Assembly (NCBI GenBank): GCA_022825235.1
Contig: JAJDYI010000026.1
Span: 1-64,000 of the forward strand
Source: Alphaproteobacteria bacterium
Lineage (GTDB): Bacteria; Pseudomonadota; Alphaproteobacteria; TMED109
DNA length: 64,000 bases
Direction: 5' to 3'
Shown: positions 19,336 to 56,969 of the stretch, in pieces
How positions within the stretch are numbered: position 1 is the stretch's first letter
Layout: every line of letters begins with the position of its first letter
Notes under the pieces: model-generated
Told to the model about the DNA's origin: nothing
Seen by the model: the letters and a program-made list of their open reading frames with translations, nothing else
Databases searched by the model: none
Program-made: the position numbers and the translations under genes

Positions 19336-19572
19336 TGCCGTGTTTCCGCGACTGGAGATGAGCCCCCAGAATACCCGGATACGGAGACTGCAGGCGGCCG
19401 CACGGCCACTGGCGTGCCCGCGTCTCCGGAGGTGGCCGCCCGCGCGCCGGCCGCCGCGTGCAGAACGGCTGCCATGCCTGGCGGGGATTCGTCGCGGGAA
19501 CCGGCGGGGGCGCGAAATGGGGCGCGAAATGGGCTATTTCAAGCGTGCGTGTCGCGGTGGCCTGGACCGGGG

Positions 19573-20949
19573 ATGAACATGGGTCAGGATCACGAGAAGG
19601 CGGATCAGAAGGCGGTCGACACCAGAATCGGCGGACAGGCGCGGCGGCATGCGCGACTGGGCCTCGAGGCCAGCCGGGTGGCCGCCCGCTACGTGGGAAG
19701 GCGGGCGACTGGCCGTCAGGATGACGGCGTCTCGGGGGCCACCGACCTGGTCCGGGCGCTGGGGGGCCTCAAGGGACCCGTCATGAAGGTCGCCCAGTTG
19801 CTGGCCGCGGTTCCCGACCTGCTCCCGCCGGAGTACGCCAAGCAGCTCAGTACCCTGCAGGCCGACGCCCCCCCGATGGGATGGCTGTTCGTGCGCCGAC
19901 GCATGGCGGCGGAACTGGGGCCGGACTGGCAGGACCGGTTCGAGGCGTTCGGCCGCAAGGCGGCGCACGCGGCGTCACTCGGGCAGGTCCACCGCGCCCG
20001 CGCCGATGGACGCGACGTGGCGCTCAAGCTGCAGTACCCCGACATGGCATCGACCGTGCAGGCCGATCTCAAGCAACTGCGGTTCTTTCTCGGCCTGTAC
20101 GGCCGCTACGACCGGGCCATTCACACGAGCGAGGTCTACGCCGAACTGGCCGTGCGGCTGCAGGAGGAACTCGACTACGCCCGCGAGCGGCGGACCATGC
20201 GGATGTTCGCGGACATGCTGGCCTCGACGGACGGTGTTCGGGTGCCCGAGCCGGTTGCGGCACTGTGCACCGAACGGTTGCTCACGATGACGTGGCTGGA
20301 AGGCCGGCGCCTCGGCGAGTTTGCCGACGCGGCGCAGGAAGTCCGCGATCAGGCGGCGCTTCGGCTATTCCATGCCTGGTACCAGCCGTTCTACTGGTAC
20401 GGCGTGATTCACGGGGATCCGCACCCCGGAAACTATTCGCTCGCCGCGGACGGAACCCTCAACCTGCTCGATTTCGGATGCGTGCGGACGTTCGAGGCCC
20501 GGTTCGTCGAAGGCGTCATCAACCTCTACCGGGCGAAACGCGACGGCGACAGGGAACTGGCGGTCGCTGCCTATGAATCGTGGGGGTTCACCGGGCTGTC
20601 CCAGGAGATGCTCGACGTGCTCGACCTCTGGGCGGACTATCTCTACGCGCCGCTGCTCGACGATCAGACCCGGCCGATCCAGGAGGCTACCAGCGAGGGC
20701 CGGCGGGTCGTCGTGCATGTCCATCGGGAACTGCGGCGCCTTGGCGGCGTGAAGCCGCCCAGGGAATTCGTCCTGGTCGACCGGGCGGCGATCGGCCTGG
20801 GGTCAGTCTTCACGACACTGGGTGCCCGGCTCAACTGGCATCGGCTGATCGAGGAAATCATGGGGGGATTTTCGAAGGAGGGACTAGCCCGCAACCAGCG
20901 CCGCGCCTTACAACAGGCCGGTCTTCCCCCGACCGAGGCGTCAAGCTGA
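19573..20949 (+). CDS. ABC1/AarF (UbiB) family atypical kinase-like protein
   Basis: A 458-residue ABC1-family protein. These atypical kinase-like ATPases support ubiquinone synthesis or lipid handling. The family KxGQ motif appears as MKVAQLL (Lys about residue 71), so Gly is replaced by Ala. The Ala-rich loop is AASLGQVHRA (about 133-142), the Lys of VAIK type is VALKLQYP, the catalytic loop is HGDPHPGN (about 279-286), and the metal-binding motif is LDFGCV (about 298). There is no C-terminal membrane helix as in UbiB proper, so the role may differ from UbiB. The start ATG 19573 is six codons before the charged N-terminus. It marks the left edge of the accessory region. Confidence 0.9.
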   Translation: MNMGQDHEKADQKAVDTRIGGQARRHARLGLEASRVAARYVGRRATGRQDDGVSGATDLVRALGGLKGPVMKVAQLLAAVPDLLPPEYAKQLSTLQADAPPMGWLFVRRRMAAELGPDWQDRFEAFGRKAAHAASLGQVHRARADGRDVALKLQYPDMASTVQADLKQLRFFLGLYGRYDRAIHTSEVYAELAVRLQEELDYARERRTMRMFADMLASTDGVRVPEPVAALCTERLLTMTWLEGRRLGEFADAAQEVRDQAALRLFHAWYQPFYWYGVIHGDPHPGNYSLAADGTLNLLDFGCVRTFEARFVEGVINLYRAKRDGDRELAVAAYESWGFTGLSQEMLDVLDLWADYLYAPLLDDQTRPIQEATSEGRRVVVHVHRELRRLGGVKPPREFVLVDRAAIGLGSVFTTLGARLNWHRLIEEIMGGFSKEGLARNQRRALQQAGLPPTEASS

Positions 20950-21017
20950 GGGTTCAATTTAGACAAAAGGAAACGATCGTCGTGTTCTTGATCATCAACT
21001 CGTCTAGCGGCGTGTAA

Positions 21018-21656
21018 TCACGCCGGAGGATTGGATTCAATGCGGCTATGGTGGGAGTAAGTGTTCCAACCAATCTCATAATTTTCTGCCTCATGGCCCC
21101 ACGCGGTCCAGCCTTTACGCGTGTCGCGCGCAAACATTTCGAGAAACGGGCCGTTGCTGCAAGCTTCGATGACTTCGTACAGTTCGTCAGGCTTCCGGCT
21201 GTGTTCGCGCTTCTGGCTCGCCACGAGATTGACTTGACGTCTACCGGGAGGAAGGGTTCGGGCGTTTTTCCCACGGACCCCGAATAGGACCAGTTCAGTA
21301 ACGTTCCGGAAGTAAAAGCCGACCCCACGTCCGTCGGAGCCGCCATCCTTTCGTATTTTGTGCCAAACAATATTTGACTTATACTCAAAACCCCAAGCCC
21401 GCAACACTTCTATTCCTTCGGGCAATAATGCATTTGGCACCCAGAGATAAAGATGTGCTGGCTCGTTGATGACATCAGAAACCGGGAGGTCCTTAATCTC
21501 GGCAAGCTCCATTGTGTGATAACGGTTCAAACGCCGATGTTCTGGAGCCATCTTCCCGGTTCGATTCGTAAACCGCCATGGCGGATCAGCCAGGACAGTA
21601 TGAAACTTGGTCCCGTTCGCAATTGCCAGAAGTTCTTCTCTTGGAATGATGGTCAT
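21018..21656 (-). CDS. MT-A70 family adenine-specific methyltransferase
   Basis: A 212-residue MT-A70 methyltransferase. The catalytic motif DPPW (ADPPWRFTNR, about residues 24-33) marks N6-adenine methylation with S-adenosylmethionine. Other family segments are HLYLWVPNALLPEGIEVLRAWGFEYK, IVWHKIRKDG and RNVTELVLFGVRG. The C-terminal KPDELYEVIEACSNGPFLEMFARD carries the conserved Glu-Met-Phe-Ala-Arg block. Base composition is lower in GC than its neighbours and codon use is less biased, suggesting transfer. It is divergent from an HNH nuclease gene 99 bases away. The pair looks like a restriction-modification system in which this enzyme protects host DNA; target sequence unknown. An orphan regulatory role is possible. 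Confidence 0.9.
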   Translation of the reverse strand: MTIIPREELLAIANGTKFHTVLADPPWRFTNRTGKMAPEHRRLNRYHTMELAEIKDLPVSDVINEPAHLYLWVPNALLPEGIEVLRAWGFEYKSNIVWHKIRKDGGSDGRGVGFYFRNVTELVLFGVRGKNARTLPPGRRQVNLVASQKREHSRKPDELYEVIEACSNGPFLEMFARDTRKGWTAWGHEAENYEIGWNTYSHHSRIESNPPA

Positions 21657-21755
21657 ATGCTCTTTCGAAATAGTTTCTTAACGCTTAAACTCAAAGTGGG
21701 CTAATGTTAGCGGCACGCGCTTTCTGAATCAAGGCAATGGCAGCGTTTTTATAGC

Positions 21756-22991
21756 ATGGCATACCGACCGGGCAGTTTTTCCAAGAACTTCGCATGGCGG
21801 GGCAAGGGCCTACACAAGCTGCACGCCGTCATTCGTAAGGGCTTCCGTGGGAACCTGACACCAGTAGCGCGCCAGCGGTTTCGTGACGAGTCAGGTCTCG
21901 GGGCATCACTGAGTTTGATTCCGGTCAATTTTTTCCTGAACAATCTAAACAACGAATTGTCTGTCGATGAGCTTGTATTTCAAGCAATCCAATACACGCA
22001 CTCTGCACGCTTCGATCGCCTCGCATTGTTTGCTTTCCATTTGAATCGGGTGGGTGTTTTTAGCCAGAAAGACGCTCGCCCTGCGATGTGGGCAAATGAA
22101 TTTGTGCGTGAGCGGCTTTGGTTAGATGGTGTTTGGCAATCGTCGGCCCTTTCTGTCTCGTCGCTTGACGATTTCTTCAAAGACAGAATTCGTGCCCAAG
22201 AAGATGTTAAGGTCAAGTGTAGGAGCAATTATCGTCATTTGTATGAACTATGCGAATTCTTGCCGTCCCCTCTGCCCGTAATTAATTCCGGGGCAGATTA
22301 TTGGTTTCGGTCCTCGATGTTTCTCGCTTGGGATCGGCACGTATTGGCCGGCGGCTCTGACGATAGAACGTCCTTACTCAGTATTGTTGACGAAGACGAA
22401 CTATATAAGCTCTTGGGATTAACGAGAGAATACACATTAGCGAGAGCAAATGACGTGGTTGGACGCTACTTTGCCGTCGGGGGAGTTGCTCGCTTTACGA
22501 AACGGAAAAAGGAAGCTACTGAAACAGTGTTGTCATCCGCTGGCAGTGCATCGGATGAGCAAATCATGGATGAGTTAGCCATCCATGAAATGGAAGAGGA
22601 GGATGCCGCAGTTCAGCGCAGAACAGTGGAGCGGCAGGAGCAGCAACGTGATCAACGGAAGGCAGCTGTACTTAAGCAGCATTATAGGAATACTTGCATG
22701 TTTTGTGGAATTGGGTTGGAAATTGGCGGTGGTAAAATTTATTCGGAGGCTGCTCACATCAAGGCGTTGGGCAAACCTCATAATGGACCGGACAAAAAAA
22801 GCAACATGCTAGTACTGTGTCCGAATCACCATCTCCAGTTTGACAGGGGTGTCTTGCGGTTGCATCGAGTTGGTGAGCATTATCAAATTAAATCGAAGTC
22901 CGCTGGCGACTCGCTCCATGGAAAACTCATTGATTTCAAGCATAGGATTGACGAGAATTACGTAAAATATCATCACGATTGGCACAAATAA
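21756..22991 (+). CDS. HNH endonuclease, likely restriction enzyme
   Basis: A 411-residue protein with a C-terminal HNH nuclease domain (about residues 310-375). It has a Cys-x-x-Cys pair (CMFCG), then SEAAHIKALGKP, NMLVLCPNHHLQFDRG, giving the His/Asn/His core plus metal-binding Cys. The first 300 residues form an unrecognised domain, moderately basic at the start (KNFAWRGKGLHKLHAVIRKGFRG) with a coiled-coil linker (MEEEDAAVQRRTVERQEQQRDQRK) before the nuclease. DNA recognition probably lies in the N-terminal part. AT-richer than the flanks. Paired divergently with an adenine methyltransferase, it is best read as the nuclease of a type II-like system. Function as McrA-type modification-dependent nuclease is an alternative. 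Confidence 0.85.
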   Translation: MAYRPGSFSKNFAWRGKGLHKLHAVIRKGFRGNLTPVARQRFRDESGLGASLSLIPVNFFLNNLNNELSVDELVFQAIQYTHSARFDRLALFAFHLNRVGVFSQKDARPAMWANEFVRERLWLDGVWQSSALSVSSLDDFFKDRIRAQEDVKVKCRSNYRHLYELCEFLPSPLPVINSGADYWFRSSMFLAWDRHVLAGGSDDRTSLLSIVDEDELYKLLGLTREYTLARANDVVGRYFAVGGVARFTKRKKEATETVLSSAGSASDEQIMDELAIHEMEEEDAAVQRRTVERQEQQRDQRKAAVLKQHYRNTCMFCGIGLEIGGGKIYSEAAHIKALGKPHNGPDKKSNMLVLCPNHHLQFDRGVLRLHRVGEHYQIKSKSAGDSLHGKLIDFKHRIDENYVKYHHDWHK

Positions 22992-23225
22992 TCGTGTTGT
23001 AAACAACTACATTAGGTTCATATTATATGATGTTTGCGAAATACAATTCTAATCCGTGACACGTTCTTGAAGCTTACGGAGAGCATCTCTGCTATTGCTT
23101 GAGTTGTATTTGCAGATACTCACGGAAATTCAGTCTCCCGAATCCGGATTACCCCGCGTGCGCTCGATCGGTTGTGGCAGGTCAACGAAATCGCCCGCGG
23201 AAGCGCGATAGAACCATATCGATGG

Positions 23226-23271: not shown

Positions 23272-23346
23272 GGGCGCGTAGCTCAGCGGGAGAGCACTAC
23301 GTTGACATCGTAGGGGTCGCTGGTTCAATCCCAGCCGCGCCCACCA
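23272..23346 (+). tRNA. tRNA-Val (GAC anticodon)
   Basis: A full cloverleaf can be folded. The acceptor stem GGGCGCG/CGCGCCC closes perfectly; the D-arm is GCTCAGCGGGAGAGC; the anticodon stem CTACG/CGTAG surrounds the loop TTGACAT, giving GAC; the T-arm contains GGTTCAATCCC. The 3' CCA (23344-23346) is encoded. It sits at the junction between the AT-rich nuclease/methyltransferase region and a repeat cluster, a common place for mobile elements to insert, though no integrase is seen. Confidence 0.97.
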
Positions 23347-28349: not shown

Positions 28350-28958
28350 TCACTTGAATATAAGTTGCAAAATCGGCATCCCCTGAGGCAGGCAGAAGTC
28401 AGTGACTTCATCGGTGACGCCGCATTGAAGAGCTTCATTCGAACTGAGATACCCCATGTCGAGGAAGAGTTTGTCCAGTTGATCACGACCTAATTGCGTA
28501 TGCCTGACCATGATATCGGCTATGCGAGATTGGTCATTTTCAATTCCTTGCATGCGTTCTTGAAGCTGCTTTCTTTCTAGGCGAGCATTTTGAATATCAA
28601 AACCGACTCCGTGAAACATGAAGCTTGATACGGTGGATGCCACTCGGCGTGCTGCCGCCTGATAAACGACATTTCCAATGGAATTGACGCTACCTACATT
28701 ATAAACAATTACTGACACAGGCAGAGCACGTATAAAGTTGTATATCGCAATACCATCTTGAACAGTACCACCTGGTGTTGATAGGAGCAAATGGATTTCG
28801 TCATGGTTCTTGTTTGCCAGGTCGGCCAGCGAACCCATTAGCACTGGGGCGGTCTGAGCGGATATGTTGGACGAAAATGAAACACAAACTGGTCTTGATC
28901 CGTTCGGTGTGATCTCCGTCGGTTCTGCTGCCACTGGAATTTTCAGGCTCTCGTCCAC
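28350..28958 (-). CDS. ClpP-like serine protease (stand-alone)
   Basis: A 202-residue protein of the ClpP/crotonase fold. Segments match the ClpP-like subgroup: EIHLLLSTPGGTVQDGIAIY (substrate-binding loop, Gly-Gly), VGSVNSIGNVVYQAA with the likely nucleophile Ser in NSIG (about residue 98), SSFMFHGVGF with His (about 120), and a C-terminal DMGYLSSNEALQCGVTDEV. It is about the length of ClpP but lacks a ClpP processing site and has no adjacent ClpX or ClpA. The GTG at 28958 is preferred, with GGAG eight bases upstream; a TTG at 28982 is the upstream alternative. AT-richer than the chromosome, so probably acquired. Role unknown; such proteases appear in phage-related and defence contexts. Confidence 0.82.
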   Translation of the reverse strand: MDESLKIPVAAEPTEITPNGSRPVCVSFSSNISAQTAPVLMGSLADLANKNHDEIHLLLSTPGGTVQDGIAIYNFIRALPVSVIVYNVGSVNSIGNVVYQAAARRVASTVSSFMFHGVGFDIQNARLERKQLQERMQGIENDQSRIADIMVRHTQLGRDQLDKLFLDMGYLSSNEALQCGVTDEVTDFCLPQGMPILQLIFK

Positions 28959-29474
28959 TGCTATTTCTCCGAGCGATGACAAATTGGATTATCGGCAGCC
29001 GCCGTCGGCAGTACGCTTATTCGCTGCCGCAATAATTTCCTCTGCAACTACGTAGATTGTCCCAAAATTCCGTGGGCAGGGGCAACAATCTGAAGCCACC
29101 GGAGGATACATGGACCTTATAGGCCTATCAATCGGGCTTCCATCCCGGCAGCATTCCACCCTGACATCCTCGAACCAGTTATGTAATTGCCACGATCAAT
29201 AAAAGATCATCAGGCCAGCACGGAATACCGAACCAGAACTGTCCTGATCGCGGGCTCGGGGCCGGCTCGAAAGGCAGCTTCTCGCGTCGATTCTGCGCGT
29301 GTGCATCGGTCCAGCTATCACGCCCGAAAGCGCAACAACCATCTGGACGCCGATCGCTTTACCGGGAACCGACTGATCTTCCGATGCTCCGGCAAGCAGC
29401 CGCCCGGAAAGTGAAGCCCAGCCTGTCCGTGGACGGAGCCGCCGACGCACGCGCCAGCATGGTTCGCCAGGTGT
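28959..29474. other. Intergenic region between ClpP-like and VOC genes
   Basis: About 515 bases. The left 200 bases are AT-richer and should contain the promoter of the ClpP-like gene. The right part returns to chromosomal GC content. No gene is recognised. Confidence 0.45.
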
Positions 29475-55071: not shown

Positions 55072-56193
55072 TCAGGCGCTGCCGTCAAACGCCAGCCGGA
55101 CGCCGCAGAGGATATGCCGCGTCGCGGGCGGGTAGTAGTTGCGGAACGCGGGGCGCCGGACTTCCGGCTCGCTCAGGCGGCTGCCACCCTTCAGCACGAA
55201 GTGCCGTCCGTCGAACCATGGCAGCGAGTACTCGCGGTAGGGGAACGGCCGGAACCCGGGATAGGGATGGAAGCGGTTGGCGCACCACTCCCAGACGCGG
55301 CCGGTGTCGTGGAGCAGACCGGCCCGCCGGGCGGTCTCCCATTCATGCTCGTGCGGCAAACGTCCACCGCGAAACCGCGCGTAGGCGCCGGCTTCGTGAC
55401 GACTCACGCCGGCGACGAATTCGCCGGGGTCGTCCGGAACGGCGCCCTGCCATGCATCCGGTGCTTCGACTTCCGTTCGCGTCTGCCAACGCCAGCCTTC
55501 CGGTGTCCACCACCGGGGATCGCGGTACCCGCCGGCGACGACAAACGCCTCCCATTCGCGATTGGTGACCGGCCGCTGCGCGATGCGGAAATCGCGCAGC
55601 CGGACCCGGGCACGCGGGAGCTCGTTGTCGTGCGCGCGGGCCGGATCGGCGCTGCCGACGGGCACGACTGCGCCAGGCAGCGACCGGGTCGGCGCATCAA
55701 CCGAGCCCGGGTGCCCGGGCCCGGCTGCCGGCTGGCCGGGGGTGCGCACCCGGCCGGCGGCCGTGCGAACGGTCTCGAGATGCTGGGCGTGATGCGAGAC
55801 GAGGAAATGCAGGATGCGGTCATCCGCGCGCAGCGGGTCCGCCGCGTCCGGATCGCGCACCTTGCAGAGGAGTGCCCAGTTGCGCTGCATCGTTTCGTTC
55901 GACCACCGGAGCAGCTCGGCGCGCCGCGGCAGCAGGCCTCCCCGGGCGGATTTCGGTGCGAGTTCCGGCAGGCAGCGTTGCGCGAGGCGATCTCGGATCG
56001 CGTGATCGGCCAACAGGGCGGAACGGATCCACACGCATTCGACGAACACGCAGTGTTCGAGATGCCACCCGATCGGACTGAGGTCGGGGTGCGCCTGGTC
56101 GCGCAGGCGGTCCTCGCTCTGCGCGGCAGCGGCACCGAGGAGCGCCCGCTGCAGGTCGTGCCAGCGACCAAGGGGATCGTGGGCCGGGCTCAC
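55072..56193 (-). CDS. egtB: Ergothioneine biosynthesis sulfoxide synthase EgtB
   Basis: A 373-residue protein with an N-terminal DinB-like iron-binding domain and a C-terminal FGE-sulfatase domain. The ferrous iron ligands are visible: His in IGWHLEH (about residue 43) and the HX3HXE motif in VSHHAQHLETV (about 133-139). The C-terminal part holds RPVTNREWEAFVVAGGYRDPRWW, RLPHEHEWETARRAG, VWEWCANRFHPYPGF and VLKGGSRLSEP. The enzyme joins hercynine with gamma-glutamylcysteine or cysteine, using oxygen. It is shorter than the usual EgtB of about 430. The start overlaps the egtC stop by ATGA. A SenA-type selenoneine enzyme is an alternative, but egtC favours ergothioneine. Confidence 0.85.
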   Translation of the reverse strand: MSPAHDPLGRWHDLQRALLGAAAAQSEDRLRDQAHPDLSPIGWHLEHCVFVECVWIRSALLADHAIRDRLAQRCLPELAPKSARGGLLPRRAELLRWSNETMQRNWALLCKVRDPDAADPLRADDRILHFLVSHHAQHLETVRTAAGRVRTPGQPAAGPGHPGSVDAPTRSLPGAVVPVGSADPARAHDNELPRARVRLRDFRIAQRPVTNREWEAFVVAGGYRDPRWWTPEGWRWQTRTEVEAPDAWQGAVPDDPGEFVAGVSRHEAGAYARFRGGRLPHEHEWETARRAGLLHDTGRVWEWCANRFHPYPGFRPFPYREYSLPWFDGRHFVLKGGSRLSEPEVRRPAFRNYYPPATRHILCGVRLAFDGSA

Positions 56194-56969
56194 AACGGCT
56201 GGGTCTCGATGCCGGTGCCCGCGATCACGACGAGATGGCCCGACGGCACGCGTTTCCAGGACGTATCCTGGTCGAACGGTTCCGAAGCCACCAGCAGGCC
56301 GTCGGCGAACGCTGGGTGGCGCACGGCGGTGTACAGGCTGGGCGCGGGGCGTCGGCCGACGGCGTGACGGGTGGCGACGATCAGGTCGGGCGTGGCTGCG
56401 ATCACGTTCAGCAGCGCATCCGCATCTCGTGGAAGCAGATGGGACAGGATCTTGAATGCCTGGCGCACGGCTCCGGGCAGGTCATCGCCCGGGAGCTCCC
56501 ACTGTCGGCGCACCAGCGCGAACAGGAGTTCGGAATCGCTCGAACCCCGGATGGTTGCCTCAAGTCCGGGGGGCAGGAGCTGGCGCAGGCGCGGGCGCAC
56601 CGTGCCCAGGAACTGCTCGATGTAGCCGTTGTGCGAGAACAGCAGACCGTCCGCCTGAAACGGGTGGGTGTTCTCGTGGTGCACGGGCAGGGGCGGCGTG
56701 GCGCTCCGGACGTTGGCGACCCAGACTGGCCGTGTCAGCGCGCTTGCCAACTGCGGTAGGTTGGGATCCTGCCAGACCGGGAGCGTGCTTCGGTAATGGC
56801 CGGGACTCCGGTCGTCGTTGAACCAGCCGAAGCCGTAGCCATCGGCGCACACGAGGGTCCGTTCGAACTCGCGGGCGGCATGGCTCTGGACCACGAGCGA
56901 GTGCGCCGGCCGGGTCAGGAAGGCGTCCAGGCGGCACGGGGGGCCGAGGTAGGCGGCGTGACGGCACAT
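56190..56969 (-). CDS. egtC: Class II glutamine amidotransferase EgtC
   Basis: A 259-residue Ntn-type amidohydrolase. The nucleophile is Cys 2 (MCRHAAYLGPP). Family features are CADGYGFGWFNDDR, WVANVRSATPPLPVHHENTHPF and LFSHNGYIEQFLG. EgtC removes the gamma-glutamyl group from the hercynyl sulfoxide intermediate made by EgtB in the mycobacterial-type ergothioneine pathway. It lies upstream of egtB and overlaps it by ATGA. In many relatives EgtB uses cysteine directly and egtC is missing, so its presence predicts use of gamma-glutamylcysteine. egtD is 12 kb away. Confidence 0.88.
   Translation of the reverse strand: MCRHAAYLGPPCRLDAFLTRPAHSLVVQSHAAREFERTLVCADGYGFGWFNDDRSPGHYRSTLPVWQDPNLPQLASALTRPVWVANVRSATPPLPVHHENTHPFQADGLLFSHNGYIEQFLGTVRPRLRQLLPPGLEATIRGSSDSELLFALVRRQWELPGDDLPGAVRQAFKILSHLLPRDADALLNVIAATPDLIVATRHAVGRRPAPSLYTAVRHPAFADGLLVASEPFDQDTSWKRVPSGHLVVIAGTGIETQPL

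Follow-up and report, generated by a model that had tools for sequence, protein, structure and literature searches.

The window analysed here, a stretch of 64,000 nucleotides, carries an AT-rich insertion of ~2.3 kb, whose gene content consists only of an MT-A70 methylase (MT) gene and a divergently oriented gene for a nuclease, here called NTD-HNH after its N-terminal domain (NTD) and its C-terminal HNH domain (Table 1). The earlier note on this DNA had described a DPPW methyltransferase and a 411-residue protein with a C-terminal HNH domain, divergent and 99 bp apart, in an AT-richer block holding nothing else; the open reading frames are exactly as it gave them, and both composition and comparison bear out the block. 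GC content is 0.48-0.51 over the gene pair versus 0.60-0.72 in the surroundings, and GC3 is 0.55 in the MT gene and 0.50 in the HNH gene versus 0.82 and 0.72 in the neighbour genes. The homology of the window to three congeneric genomes (L132-L134) breaks at ~20940 and restarts at ~23219, and in these congeners about 140-160 bp separate the ABC1 kinase-like gene, 86-95% identical, from the tRNA-Val(GAC) gene that comes after it. Because this site is empty in the congeners, the GC drop represents a real insertion.

Table 1. Features of the methylase/nuclease cassette, its chromosomal flanks and the second pair of the host.
Feature	Position	Strand	Basis or remark
ABC1 kinase-like gene, left chromosomal flank, outside the system	19414..20949	+	Pfam ABC1 1.3e-50
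Acquired insertion	20941..23218	.	Empty site in three congeneric genomes and GC drop
MT-A70 family N6-adenine DNA methyltransferase, 212 aa, predicted RGATCY	21018..21656	-	Pfam MT-A70 E 2.6e-30
DPPW catalytic motif, residues 24-27	21576..21587	-	Read from the sequence; kept in 12/13 aligned relatives
Divergent intergenic region, 99 bp	21657..21755	.	Between the MT and NTD-HNH genes; GATC absent inside
NTD-HNH nuclease, 411 aa	21756..22991	+	Pfam HNH_2 at C-terminus; full-length relatives L001-L003, L032, L033
Uncharacterised NTD, about residues 1-265	21756..22550	+	Common to HNH-fused proteins and PIN-linked 350-367 aa proteins
HNH_2 nuclease domain, residues 314-367	22695..22856	+	Pfam HNH_2 1.6e-9
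tRNA-Val(GAC), right chromosomal flank, outside the system	23272..23346	+	ARAGORN
Second MT-A70/BglII pair of the host	contig C55 (G000), about 55159-56540 (locus L131:5159-6540)		Near partial phage integrase

The cassette is horizontally acquired and mobile, and it is rare, occurring in one of 385 genomes of the class; neither an integrase gene within the insert nor direct repeats long enough to mark its ends were found. The divergent gap, which measures 51, 70 and 80 bp in the relatives L001, L002 and L003, gave no informative site in a promoter and terminator scan, and the insertion holds no open reading frame resembling a C-protein, as had been noted before. GATC occurs 506 times in the window against 496 expected, and this lack of depletion speaks neither for nor against a recent acquisition. 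Separately, the window has one more AT-rich patch, with a GC content of about 0.485, that contains a ClpP-like protease gene (28350-28982; Pfam CLP_protease 3.7e-20) and is possibly another small acquired cassette.

The methylase aligns without gaps over 199 residues to M.Nph3I (NrS3_07, BCD83123.1) of Nitratiruptor phage NrS-3, with 66% identity and 82% similarity. The synthesised NrS3_07 was reported to methylate RGATCY to RG(6mA)TCY, and its BglII-family neighbour in the R-M system of this phage, NrS3_08, cuts RGATCY (Zhang et al., 2023; PMC10734518). On the basis of this identity, the specificity of the window MT is predicted to be RGATCY. Small MT-A70 proteins had been remarked to be often orphans; this one is not a typical orphan, as it belongs to the M.Nph3I family of a phage R-M system. 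Its closest annotated phage relatives include those of Mesorhizobium phage Lo5R7ANS (69%), which adjoins a gene annotated as BglII, and of NrS-3. A BglII-family restriction endonuclease (REase) gene is found in 46 of 80 viral loci with close MT relatives, nearly always directly beside the MT, and at 14 of 19 chromosomal alphaproteobacterial loci; therefore, the usual partner of this MT subfamily is a BglII/BstYI-type enzyme. Additionally, another MT-A70 of this subfamily, with 65% identity to the window MT, is encoded elsewhere in the host genome beside a BglII-family REase, so that the host seems, judging from these likenesses, to carry two RGATCY-type methylases. The usual BglII/BstYI-type partner, this second pair, and the PIN nuclease that accompanies the NTD elsewhere had been missed by the earlier note.

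Since MT-A70 also includes RNA methyltransferases, the MT could instead modify RNA, with the nuclease unrelated or part of a regulatory circuit in which it acts on nucleic acid. A prophage MT-A70 enzyme, M.EcoPA8orf6770P, is reported to methylate 16S rRNA, which it prefers when together with a partner (PMC10810198), and the other partner of the NTD is a PIN domain. However, the 66% identity to a proven DNA methyltransferase and the BglII-type DNA REase partners across the MT subfamily make this explanation highly improbable.

The nuclease gene is not of the BglII kind, as PF09195 (Endonuc-BglII) is absent from the 411-residue protein in both the Pfam search and the BglII HMM search. Five full-length relatives were found, namely that of Ruegeria intermedia (L001, 62% identical), located in a prophage between the terminase and portal genes, those of a gammaproteobacterial MAG (L002, 54%) and of a MAG labelled Bacillota (L003, 53%), and two of Ruegeria-family genomes (L032 and L033, ~30-33%). 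The contig that carries the L003 pair is 3 kb long. Most relatives are proteobacterial, and the Bacillota label of L003 is a possible binning error. The HNH motif residues, C314-x2-C317, H334, N350 and C355-x2-HH359, are intact in all six NTD-HNH proteins. Differences between the window and L001 amount to 0.33/0.25/0.63 at codon positions 1/2/3 in the HNH gene and to 0.16/0.08/0.62 in the MT gene; the changes concentrate at the third position, so that the protein sequences of both genes are conserved. On the MT side of two NTD-HNH loci there is a nearby AIPR-family (abortive infection phage resistance) gene, at L001:3978-5174 and at L002:344-1555.

The same MT directly adjoins all six known NTD-HNH genes, divergently in four cases and co-directionally in two. 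A failure of the two genes to co-occur in other genomes, by which the first description could have been refuted, was thus looked for and not found. No BglII-family gene is present at any of the six NTD-HNH loci in the available flanks, which are short for L003. A genome-wide search for PF09195 gave no match in four of the six genomes and only a sub-cut-off fragment in a fifth, and the window genome is the one NTD-HNH genome with a BglII-family gene, on another contig and together with its own MT-A70.

That two independent genes hitch-hike by chance on one mobile cassette would agree with the rarity and mobility of this cassette, but the partnership is kept in divergent and co-directional arrangements, on two MT branches and in the NTD-PIN relatives described below, and we give such a coincidence very little credence. 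In the MT tree, the window MT lies among BglII-partnered MTs (the M.Nph3I group), where it groups with the MTs of L001-L003 (support 100/96) and this group is sister to the BglII-partnered L036_BGL (98/90), while the MTs of L032 and L033 are placed elsewhere, among BglII- and PIN-partnered MTs (100/93). In the NTD tree, the HNH- and PIN-linked forms separate at a single branch (96/94), where long branches urge caution. With the HNH-partnered MTs in two places of one tree and the NTD-HNH proteins on one side of one branch in the other, it appears that different RGATCY-type MTs have been joined by the NTD-HNH gene and that the partnership was kept. Such repeated joining would argue for a functional bond, and not for shared ancestry of one island.

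The N-terminal part had been called unrecognised, and it still is: apart from the C-terminal HNH region, the protein has no match above noise in Pfam, NCBIfam, PADLOC or PHROGs, so that residues ~1-265 are without a family there. No Pfam reader domain (winged-helix or PUA) is found in the window protein, and among PDB sequences none is convincingly related to the NTD. An NTD profile match of 16.9 bits inside the host BglII REase (residues 218-278) was treated as chance after hhalign. The AlphaFold model of the window protein reached a pLDDT of 45 and was not used, and the structure searches were made with an AF2 model of the PIN-linked relative L016 (pLDDT 79, pTM 0.83), in which the NTD is mostly helical. 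Foldseek with this model against the PDB and BFVD gave nothing at E <= 0.001, and we do not take the absent matches as evidence of a new fold. VIA-align ranked the N.BspD6I nickase first, through its recognition part (Z 4.1, rmsd 4.4, 155 residues), followed by weak winged-helix-like matches (Z 2-3.4) at model residues ~23-96. Scores this low do not allow kinship to be claimed and are of a size that common arrangements also give, and by the model a winged-helix part in the NTD is possible. N.BspD6I and other FokI-like type IIS enzymes also resemble the window protein in having the recognition domain (here putative) N-terminal and the nuclease C-terminal, although their nuclease is of the PD-(D/E)XK type and not HNH.

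The HNH part leads to enzymes that cut modified DNA. Its best PDB sequence match is TagI (6ghs, E 4e-17, HNH part only), and together with the upstream region it matches HhiV4I with 35% identity over 127 residues (pairwise E 1e-13). It also matches NF045808 (2e-15), with 57 bits against a family cut-off of 180 bits. By these sequence matches, the window HNH domain is assigned to the HhiV4I/TagI kind. Could the NTD-HNH protein then be a type IV, N6-methyladenine-dependent endonuclease of the wH-HNH-like sort, lying beside the methylase by happenstance? HhiV4I is itself G6mATC-dependent (PMC11037411), HhiV4I and the other PUA-wH-HNH and wH-HNH type IV enzymes share with the window protein the HNH and upstream region, a DNA-reading domain (here putative) N-terminal to HNH and the GATC context, and the winged-helix-like matches of the model would point the same way. 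However, their N-terminal parts are not alignable with that of the window protein, and while these enzymes need 6mA and mostly stand alone, with 87% of >1,000 wH-fusion enzymes having no MTase within three genes (PMC11037411), the NTD-HNH gene has a constant partner in 6/6 loci, and one of the conflicting GATC type. Such an enzyme would cut the DNA methylated by its own neighbour. A 6mA-dependent enzyme beside an RGATCY methylase would hardly be viable, and we therefore regard the type IV explanation as unlikely.

Two further comparisons bear on the HNH part. TagI, an SRA-HNH protein, is modification-dependent, whereas an SRA domain is not detected in the window protein. The wHTH+SAD+HNH (SBD-HNH) proteins of phosphorothioate (Dnd) loci share the HNH part (NF045808), but respond to phosphorothioate and not to 6mA, and their N-terminal domains are not alignable with the window protein. 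Work on Dnd systems proposes that HNH proteins with a DNA-reading domain at the N-terminus serve a modification module as its alternative restriction partner (PMC10853773).

The NTD also occurs unfused, in proteins of 350-367 residues encoded in prophages and on plasmids of Rhizobium and roseobacters (loci L004, L005, L006/L024, L013-L018 and L034), where a PIN-domain gene directly follows, usually with a 4-bp overlap or close spacing. HNH-linked and PIN-linked forms align with 47 invariant columns and about 30-35% identity. PIN domains are usually RNases. A VapBC-type toxin-antitoxin identity was rejected for these loci, with the partner being the 350-367 aa NTD protein and not a small antitoxin and the PIN scores falling below the NCBIfam VapC cut-offs. 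At NTD-PIN loci an MT is usually present, and a BglII-type REase is present too in five of ten; L034 is the one locus with no MT nearby, and another contig of its genome carries an MT together with a BglII-family gene. Overall, this MT is found in all seven examined bacterial genomes with the NTD versus 18 of 385 sampled alphaproteobacterial genomes generally. Two of these loci have further features: the MT-A70 beside the NTD-PIN pair of L013 (L013:4388-4921) has RPPW for DPPW, is without the KREHSRKP stretch, and is probably catalytically dead though retained; and a region near the pair of L034 (L034:7486-10549), with a GmrSD N-domain protein, a C5 cytosine methylase and a NaeI-type REase, looks like a defence island. 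Literature searches that combined MT-A70 with either HNH or PIN, for restriction and for defence, turned up no description of either module, and the PIN fold is not mentioned among type II REases in a 2014 review (PMC4081073).

The pairing of the same NTD with HNH, by fusion, or with PIN, as a separate gene, raises another explanation, in which the MT is coupled to a module for abortive infection or methylation guarding that uses the NTD as its sensor and an exchangeable nuclease as its suicide effector. The NTD would respond to a phage component, an anti-restriction protein or the loss of methylation at RGATCY, and then HNH would degrade DNA or PIN would cleave RNA. Consistent with this, five PIN loci already have a complete MT and BglII pair, so that NTD-PIN is extra there, and in G897 the NTD-PIN pair stands apart from its MT and BglII genes, which are on another contig. 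However, a BglII-family gene near 0/6 NTD-HNH versus 5/10 PIN loci fits replacement better than an accessory effector, and the triggers named are hypothetical; we consider this sensor-effector module a possible but rather doubtful alternative. Also on tentative ground, the NTD may be a new modular domain, aware of DNA methylation, that couples methylases of RGATCY to exchangeable effectors, either an HNH DNase (in cis) or a PIN nuclease (in trans). It would then define a family of "methylation-guarded" defence modules on prophages and plasmids, with PIN possibly RNA-cutting.

Based on the gene pair, its repeated association, the kinship of the MT to a proven RGATCY methylase and the intact HNH motif, we propose, with somewhat better than even confidence, a type II-like restriction-modification system for the cassette, in which NTD-HNH has replaced the BglII enzyme; the lack of a BglII-family gene beside NTD-HNH favours such a replacement. 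The MT-A70 enzyme would methylate the adenine of RGATCY-type sites and so protect the host. The 411-residue protein would be the restriction enzyme; its NTD would bind DNA, with unmethylated sites that share this GATC-core specificity as the most likely target, and its HNH domain would cut in or near the bound sites. Thereby, NTD-HNH would take the place held by the BglII/BstYI-type REase in sister systems. Two marks of type II systems are found here, namely adjacent DNA methyltransferase and nuclease genes conserved as a pair at six of six loci, and a methyltransferase of a DNA-methylating family with an intact motif (DPPW), and the N.BspD6I recognition-part match counts weakly toward the same reading. 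In comparison with M.Nph3I/R.Nph3I, the cassette shares the MT-A70 of a phage-borne subfamily and an adjacent nuclease gene, whereas R.Nph3I is a BglII-family protein of 195 residues and the window nuclease has no BglII similarity.

The main counter-argument to the type II-like reading is that the best characterised HNH relatives, TagI, HhiV4I and the phosphorothioate-dependent SBD-HNH, all cut modified DNA. Moreover, the NTD is not necessarily a restriction module, because elsewhere it partners PIN, with a BglII REase retained at five of the PIN loci, and the window MT may not be the sole protector, as the host has the other MT-A70/BglII pair; the second MT may have protected RGATCY sites before the cassette arrived, or the reverse.

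In conclusion, this work supports the candidate uncharacterised R-M pair put forward from the sequence, in which the nuclease would restrict unmodified DNA. The pair is real and well supported, and the nuclease, whose function we infer, is a new partner for a known kind of methylase. A likely target (RGATCY) is assigned to a previously unread cassette, and an uncharacterised domain is found recurring with one methylase subfamily. An HNH relative of the methyl-dependent type IV nucleases may have become a conventional methyl-blocked enzyme, or a sensor may work with interchangeable DNA- and RNA-cutting effectors. The nuclease half of a restriction system has apparently been exchanged, while the kind of methylase was kept.
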